Shown: positions 56,076 through 56,925 of the stretch, one piece after another | How positions within the stretch are numbered: position 1 is the first letter of the stretch | Layout: every line of letters starts with the position of its first letter | From: Tropicimonas isoalkanivorans | GTDB taxonomy: Bacteria; Pseudomonadota; Alphaproteobacteria; Rhodobacterales; Rhodobacteraceae | Assembly: GCF_900112335.1 (NCBI RefSeq) | Contig: NZ_FOLG01000013.1 | Span: 62,001-126,000, forward strand | Length of the DNA stretch: 64,000 bases | Direction of reading: 5' to 3' | Notes under the pieces: generated by a model | What the model saw: only the letters and a program-made list of their open reading frames with translations | Told to the model about the DNA's origin: nothing | The model's database searches: none | Position numbers and translations under genes: made by a program

Positions 56076-56714
56076 ATGACGCGTAAACACCTTCCCGGCA
56101 TTCTTGCCATGGCCGCTATCGTGGTGGCCTCCAATATTCTCGTGCAGCATCTCCTGGGCCAATGGCTCACGTGGGGCGCGCTGACCTATCCTTTCGCCTT
56201 CCTCGTGACCGACCTGATGAACCGCCTTTATGGCCCGGGTCCCGCGCGGCGCGTGGTTCTCGCCGGGTTCGTCGTGGGCGTAATTTGCTCGCTGATCGGC
56301 AGCCAGATCATGGGTGAATTCGGCCCGCTGGTGACTTTGCGGGTTGCCTTGGCCTCCGGCTCGGCCTTCCTCGCAGCGCAACTTGTGGACATCTTTGTTT
56401 TCGACCGCCTGCGGGACGGGCAGTGGTGGCGAGCACCGCTGGCCTCCACCCTGGTGGGGTCGTCACTGGACACGGTGATCTTCTTCACCATTGCCTTCTC
56501 GGCTTCATTCAACGGGTTGGAGCCGGTAAACACGCCCCTCTGGGCGCAGGAGACGCTGCCGATGCTCGGCGTCGGGCCAGTCGCACCGCTCTGGACCTCT
56601 CTCGCGATTGCCGATTGGATGGTCAAACTGTCCCTCGCTTTGCTCGCTTTGGTGCCGTTTCGCGTCATCGTGCAACACCTCACCGGGGACACGCGAAAAT
56701 TCATTGACACGTAA
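56076..56714 (+). CDS. VUT family queuosine-precursor transporter (YhhQ-like)
   Basis: 212 residues, six membrane helices. AIVVASNILVQHLL, LTYPFAFLVTDLMNRLYGPGPARRVVLAGF and SGSAFLAAQLVDIFVFDRLR with SSLDTVIFFTIAF are the conserved motifs of the COG1738/YhhQ family, which in E. coli imports queuine-pathway intermediates (preQ0, preQ1). ATG at 56076; a longer frame to 55980 crosses the hairpin region. It ends 37 nt before the candidate structured RNA. Confidence 0.9.
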   Translation: MTRKHLPGILAMAAIVVASNILVQHLLGQWLTWGALTYPFAFLVTDLMNRLYGPGPARRVVLAGFVVGVICSLIGSQIMGEFGPLVTLRVALASGSAFLAAQLVDIFVFDRLRDGQWWRAPLASTLVGSSLDTVIFFTIAFSASFNGLEPVNTPLWAQETLPMLGVGPVAPLWTSLAIADWMVKLSLALLALVPFRVIVQHLTGDTRKFIDT

Positions 56715-56766
56715 CCGGCCTGTGGCAGGCTGGCATCAACGGAAACAAGCGAAAGGAGGTGATCCA

Positions 56767-56823
56767 GTGTCGAGAGTCATGCTGGAGAGAGGTGTCGGAA
56801 AAATCGGGGAGGCGCGCCACTGA
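56767..56823 (+). CDS. 18-codon ORF within the structured RNA
   Basis: GTG start at 56767, stop at 56823, giving MSRVMLERGVGKIGEARH. GGAGG sits seven bases upstream inside a 16-nt perfect anti-16S match, an exceptionally strong ribosome-binding site. The start codon itself would pair with the 3' part of the RNA. Either a leader peptide whose translation opens the structure, or a chance frame beside a functional 16S-binding element. Confidence 0.45.
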   Translation: MSRVMLERGVGKIGEARH

Positions 56824-56895
56824 GGCAGCCCTCGAGGTAGCCACCCGACGAGCTTATGGGCTCACGTAGGACACCTCACCTCCAAGAGAACTCGG

Positions 56896-56925
56896 AGAGC
56901 CGTTCCCTAAGGGAGCGGCTCTTTT
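56896..56925 (+). terminator. intrinsic terminator of the candidate RNA
   Basis: Arms AGAGCCGTTCCCT (56896-56908) and AGGGAGCGGCTCT (56910-56922) pair over 13 positions with one G-U, then TTTT to 56925. The best-defined terminator in the window. Confidence 0.9.

Follow-up and report, generated by a model that had tools for sequence, protein, structure and literature searches.

Dual-function small RNAs (sRNAs) such as SgrS/SgrT and RNAIII/hld carry a short open reading frame (ORF), and StsR of Rhodobacter sphaeroides is an sRNA that touches rRNA. The RNAs closest to the present case are rreB and rreR. The former, from Bradyrhizobium, reportedly encodes 14 amino acids behind a 17-nt Shine-Dalgarno sequence (SD), and is said to sediment with 30S subunits, to be weakly translated and to be stabilised when its start codon is changed to a stop, while rreR, encoding 18 amino acids, is said to represent the Rhodobacter/Roseobacter lineage. 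A further family, CC2171 (RF01867), is typed by Rfam as an sRNA gene. PMC7298713 cites Hahn et al. 2017 (RNA Biol 14:1353-1363, doi 10.1080/15476286.2016.1256534) on a small mRNA whose SD is extended, and in Caulobacter 75% of the genes are without an SD (PMC4117421).

Here, we describe an element in Tropicimonas isoalkanivorans that is located behind yhhQ in the window, i.e. the whole stretch of 64,000 nt that was analysed, with all features given below on the + strand. The element is probably a stand-alone small mRNA of approximately 185-190 nt, of the rreB/rreR kind and related to CC2171, the translation of which would be gated by ribosomes. Shared with rreB/rreR are an SD matching at least 16 nt of the 16S rRNA 3' end (17 nt here) and a GTG start that opens, directly after the SD, a short ORF (of 18 codons in the Rhodobacter/Roseobacter lineage); a promoter-like sequence and a terminator further predict an orphan unit in the size range of approximately 165-190 nt, and the SD-locking helix P1, known from our alignment, can be set beside these. 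The ORF lengths that we arrived at independently, 18 codons for Rhodobacteraceae and 14 for Bradyrhizobium, agree with those reported for rreR and rreB. In kind, therefore, we regard the element as already known, and very probably in identity as well, given a likeness in layout and ORF length with no distinguishing feature at hand. Literature searches by sequence strings returned no match. The dual-function RNAs SgrS/SgrT and RNAIII/hld are likewise small orphan RNAs with a short ORF, but in those RNAs conservation falls on the peptide or the pairing region, whereas in the element it falls on the start, stop and length, and not on the last third of the peptide. StsR was also considered as a lead and set aside, as no link to the locus was seen and a better match appeared.

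The initial annotation had drawn attention to 16 nt that match the tail of 16S rRNA by complementarity, and this match (AAAGGAGGTGATCCAG, 56752-56767) is borne out against the 16S rRNA of the same genome, the 3' end of which reads GAAAGGAGGTGATCCAGCCGCAGG. Once G56751 is counted, the match grows to 17 nt (56751-56767), and exact copies of AAAGGAGGTGATCCAG occur genome-wide only in the rRNA gene and in the element. What had been overlooked is the ORF directly behind it, with a GTG start at 56767 and a TGA stop at 56821-56823, encoding the predicted 18-residue peptide MSRVMLERGVGKIGEARH (56767-56823). The 16S match is thus best described as the predicted SD of this ORF, and its GGAGG core does not vary in any sequence of alignment A1.

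The length of the ORF is exactly 18 codons in 107 of 117 Rhodobacteraceae genera, while its end signals interchange, with GTG, ATG and TTG as starts and TGA, TAG and TAA as stops; a first count of the stops in these 117 genera gave 52 TGA, 49 TAG and 16 TAA. Among the 117 matches listed in a pattern scan, the first letter of the start codon, which was left open in the search pattern, was G in 57, A in 56, T in 4 and C in none. A yhhQ tree of 103 genera requires at least 44 changes of stop identity, and TGG was never seen at codon 19, where approximately 20 cases were expected from base frequencies, in the 18-codon set, which is defined by its stop, so that TGG could sit in the 10 genera of other lengths. 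The position of the first in-frame stop has a standard deviation of 0-3.7 codons within groups, as compared to 24-66 in the other two frames. These patterns indicate that the start, stop and length of the short ORF are under selection, and comparison of the sequences suggests that the signals at either end of the frame are guarded more tightly by evolution than the enclosed peptide. At the end of the stop codon lies a conserved segment, AGGCAGCCCU (56823-56832), which could form a small hairpin, and GGCAGCCC is conserved there in alignment A1. The GGCAGCC-like segment of these columns stands just 3' of the stop in most Rhodobacteraceae; in three loci it lies inside the ORF and is read as Gln-Pro, and it apparently also falls within the ORF in several Rhizobiales, with ORFs of other orders ending in ...EQP or GQP.

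The description of the locus as a structured, terminator-ended RNA was supported by folding, as a 196-nt stretch reached -91 kcal/mol (z -5.5) and none of 200 shuffled sequences was equally stable. In an alignment of 44 Rhodobacteraceae species the whole structure scored better than all 500 shuffles and all slid controls. The SD core GGAGGU (56755-56760) forms the 5' strand of P1 and is locked by ACCUCC (56878-56883) in both fold and alignment, and a second hairpin, P2 (UCCAGU...GCUGGA, 56763-56786), likewise found in fold and alignment, covers the start codon. P1 is paired in 98.5% and P2 in 98.9% of the cells of the alignment, and both are kept with one-sided changes only. Nearly all changes in P1 keep the pair (G-C to G-U, U-A to U-G), and because the SD strand hardly varies, the support consists of compatible rather than compensatory change. 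Compensatory changes are seen in P3 and in the intrinsic terminator (56895-56925), where a GC-rich stem precedes a U run in fold and alignment; the stem has 12-13 pairs at 56895-56923, in keeping with the 13 originally proposed, and all 10 counted pairs show compensatory changes.

The locking of the SD varies with lineage. In Rhodobacteraceae the SD is paired with a probability of 0.99, in Bradyrhizobium, where the partner lies within the ORF, with one of 0.85, and elsewhere (Caulobacter/Rhizobiales and Sphingomonad groups) the value is approximately at or below that of shuffles. An SD lock as a rule for the entire family was therefore rejected, and in these other groups the sequences, judged by eye, point instead to a closing helix that begins shortly after the start codon. 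Seven Bradyrhizobium-type loci carry a 14-codon ORF (e.g. VSFTKRCHLAGIAR), and these ORFs contain UCACCUC and CUGGGAUC, both of which are able to pair with their own SD region.

The initial annotation recognised no known family, a view that needs revision given the fit to rreB/rreR as reported and a match to RF01867 (43.6 bits, E 6.1e-8) below the cut-off of 75. Its suggestion of an Rfam search thus led to a divided outcome, with no match on the element at the gathering threshold and RF01867 emerging by E-value threshold (E 6e-8). The only Rfam match at the gathering threshold anywhere in the window is a serC leader RNA (RF00517; 32595-32646, +, 71.6 bits). Scores against RF01867 are as high as 90 bits among relatives from other orders. 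The element has the conserved 5' block of that family with the SD and GTGTC (CAACAA..GAAAGGAGGUGAUCCAGUGUC), the same overall order and the terminator, and we regard it as a remote relative of CC2171. It differs in the closing helix, which in CC2171 joins a stretch around codons 3-5 to bases just before the terminator; at this helix the window shows gaps in the model alignment, and the SD pairs with ACCUCC instead. The RF01867 members that lie above the cut-off and were read for ORFs have a 22-26 codon ORF behind the same SD. Although the family is typed as an sRNA gene, the members read here, with start, stop and extended SD, suggest that this typing should be corrected. One genome (G047) has two RF01867 matches, both with the SD motif (C1:805104-805255 and C1:2921849-2922077; 68.9 and 34.6 bits), which are possible paralogues.

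Upstream of the element, a promoter-like sequence overlaps the stop codon of yhhQ, with TTGACA at 56704-56709, a 17-nt spacer and AGGCTG at 56727-56732 (56704-56732). Of 117 Rhodobacteraceae genera, 85 have a TTGACA-like box (at least 5 of 6 positions) at a distance of 57-68 nt before the start codon, and such a box occurs in 11% of shuffled upstream regions. As judged from sequence and fold, the element thus has both a promoter-like sequence and a terminator of its own. Rhodobacteraceae homologues always lie behind yhhQ and mostly before arfB, whereas loci in other orders have different neighbours. In 65 of 158 loci the next downstream gene runs in the opposite direction, which means that the element is not the leader of one gene, and together with the TTGACA-like box this argues for an orphan unit and not an arfB leader.

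Based on these features, the probable course of events would begin with a promoter at the end of yhhQ producing the RNA, which would then fold such that the SD is locked by P1 through ACCUCC and the start codon by P2. Free 30S subunits may use the 17-nt complementarity to their 16S tail to enter and open the lock; ribosome binding has reportedly been seen for the Bradyrhizobium homologue. Ribosomes would then translate the 18 codons and end just before the conserved segment, so that invasion by 30S subunits and translation of the short frame would together decide the expression and lifetime of the RNA. With the lock opened by 30S subunits and the frame translated, RNA expression and stability would depend on ribosomes, and the main importance of the product would lie in being an RNA of fixed length that is translated. 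The translational switch and the 30S-binding RNA proposed in the initial annotation both survive here in part: binding of 30S subunits and translational control are sensible because a conserved helix conceals the long match to 16S rRNA, while a 30S-binding RNA devoid of coding content is not supported, as this match serves as the predicted SD of a conserved ORF. Against the small-mRNA explanation speaks the report of Schrader et al. (PMC4117421), in which most Caulobacter ncRNAs derive from intergenic regions found untranslated by ribosome profiling; that ncRNA set counts in 27 earlier ones, and the main text is silent on CC2171 singly.

Beyond the small mRNA itself, it can tentatively be proposed that the act of translation, and not the peptide, is the function, with a pan-alphaproteobacterial RNA sensing or titrating free 30S subunits through its full match to the 16S tail, and with the start, stop and short length (14-31 codons, approximately what fits in a ribosome tunnel) selected while the amino acids are largely free. 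The opposite view, of a functional 18-aa micro-protein for which the RNA structure only sets the level, is unlikely, even though start and stop are strictly kept and codons 2-12 have a synonymous fraction of 0.49 as compared to 0.18 in shifted frames. This excess stems largely from codons 2 and 9-11, which change mostly synonymously, whereas codons 13-18 vary without coding constraint (0.25 vs 0.36-0.40). Further, nucleotide diversity at codon positions 1/2/3 is 0.37/0.39/0.38 in the ORF and 0.35/0.24/0.57 in the neighbouring yhhQ, such that the short ORF, unlike yhhQ, has no overall excess at position 3. The peptides of other orders are dissimilar, ranging from 14 to 31 aa with little in common beyond Met-Ser among the matches listed. 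Substitution patterns thus suggest that the C-terminal third does not contribute to function and that the N-terminal part may do so; a wholly unconstrained peptide was not upheld, as the synonymous excess of codons 2-12 over shifted frames leaves the irrelevance of the peptide unproven.

Three further readings turn on the structure and the neighbourhood. If ribosomes opened P1, the freed ACCUCC, which resembles an anti-SD, or another loop might bind the SDs of other mRNAs; the orphan unit and the maintenance of ACCUCC, identical to the anti-SD core of 16S rRNA, as the P1 partner in Rhodobacteraceae are compatible with such a trans-acting RNA, but the segment is often AUCUCC or GCCUCC, a weaker anti-SD, and the absence of SD pairing above shuffles in the Caulobacter/Rhizobiales and Sphingomonad groups also makes this improbable. 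Control of the downstream ribosome rescue gene arfB by attenuation at the terminator is very improbable and was rejected by synteny: arfB does follow in the same orientation at most loci of the Rhodobacteraceae, but it is missing there in several, a conserved co-directional downstream gene is lacking among the 158 loci, and a search for an antiterminator helix found none. Hardly credible, finally, is the bistable switch of two mutually exclusive helices put forward in the initial annotation. Both can be drawn in the window, GGAGGTGA (56755-56762) with TCACCTCC (56876-56883) and GAGGTGTC (56789-56796) with GACACCTC (56870-56877), but they do not compete for one 3' segment: the overlap between their 3' strands is limited to 2 nt (56876-56877), and the two helices lie adjacent at a junction of the minimum free energy (MFE) structure. 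The second helix (GAGGUGUC, 56789-56796, with GACACCUC, 56870-56877) is present in the MFE structure and not conserved in the family, being paired in 47.1% of the cells of the 44-species alignment as compared to 47.0% in shuffles. The comparison with shuffles in the alignment thus retained the helix that hides the SD and removed its supposed competitor, and with both helices in one MFE structure the two-helix switch was rejected.

New in this work are the link between CC2171 and short ORFs, and the apparent selection, which acts more on the start, stop and length than on the peptide. The element offers a testable case in which the ends and length of a reading frame are kept more strictly than the peptide, and it hints that, in bacteria with many SD-less genes, the regulatory signal may be translation itself.

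As for its distribution, homologues turned up in most of the Rhodobacteraceae when 60 relatives were searched by BLAST, and a covariance model built from the 44 Rhodobacteraceae homologues matched 141 of 150 family genomes, nearly all from different genera (approximately 130 at E < 1e-13). The pattern AAAGGAGGTGATCCNNTGTC was found in at least 117 stretches, nearly all from records named Alphaproteobacteria, and among 299 genomes of the phylum all matches fell inside Alphaproteobacteria. Two metagenome-assembled genomes labelled Gemmatimonadetes carry the same SD, a TTG start and mutually similar 20-codon ORFs, with contamination, misbinning or transfer as possible origins.
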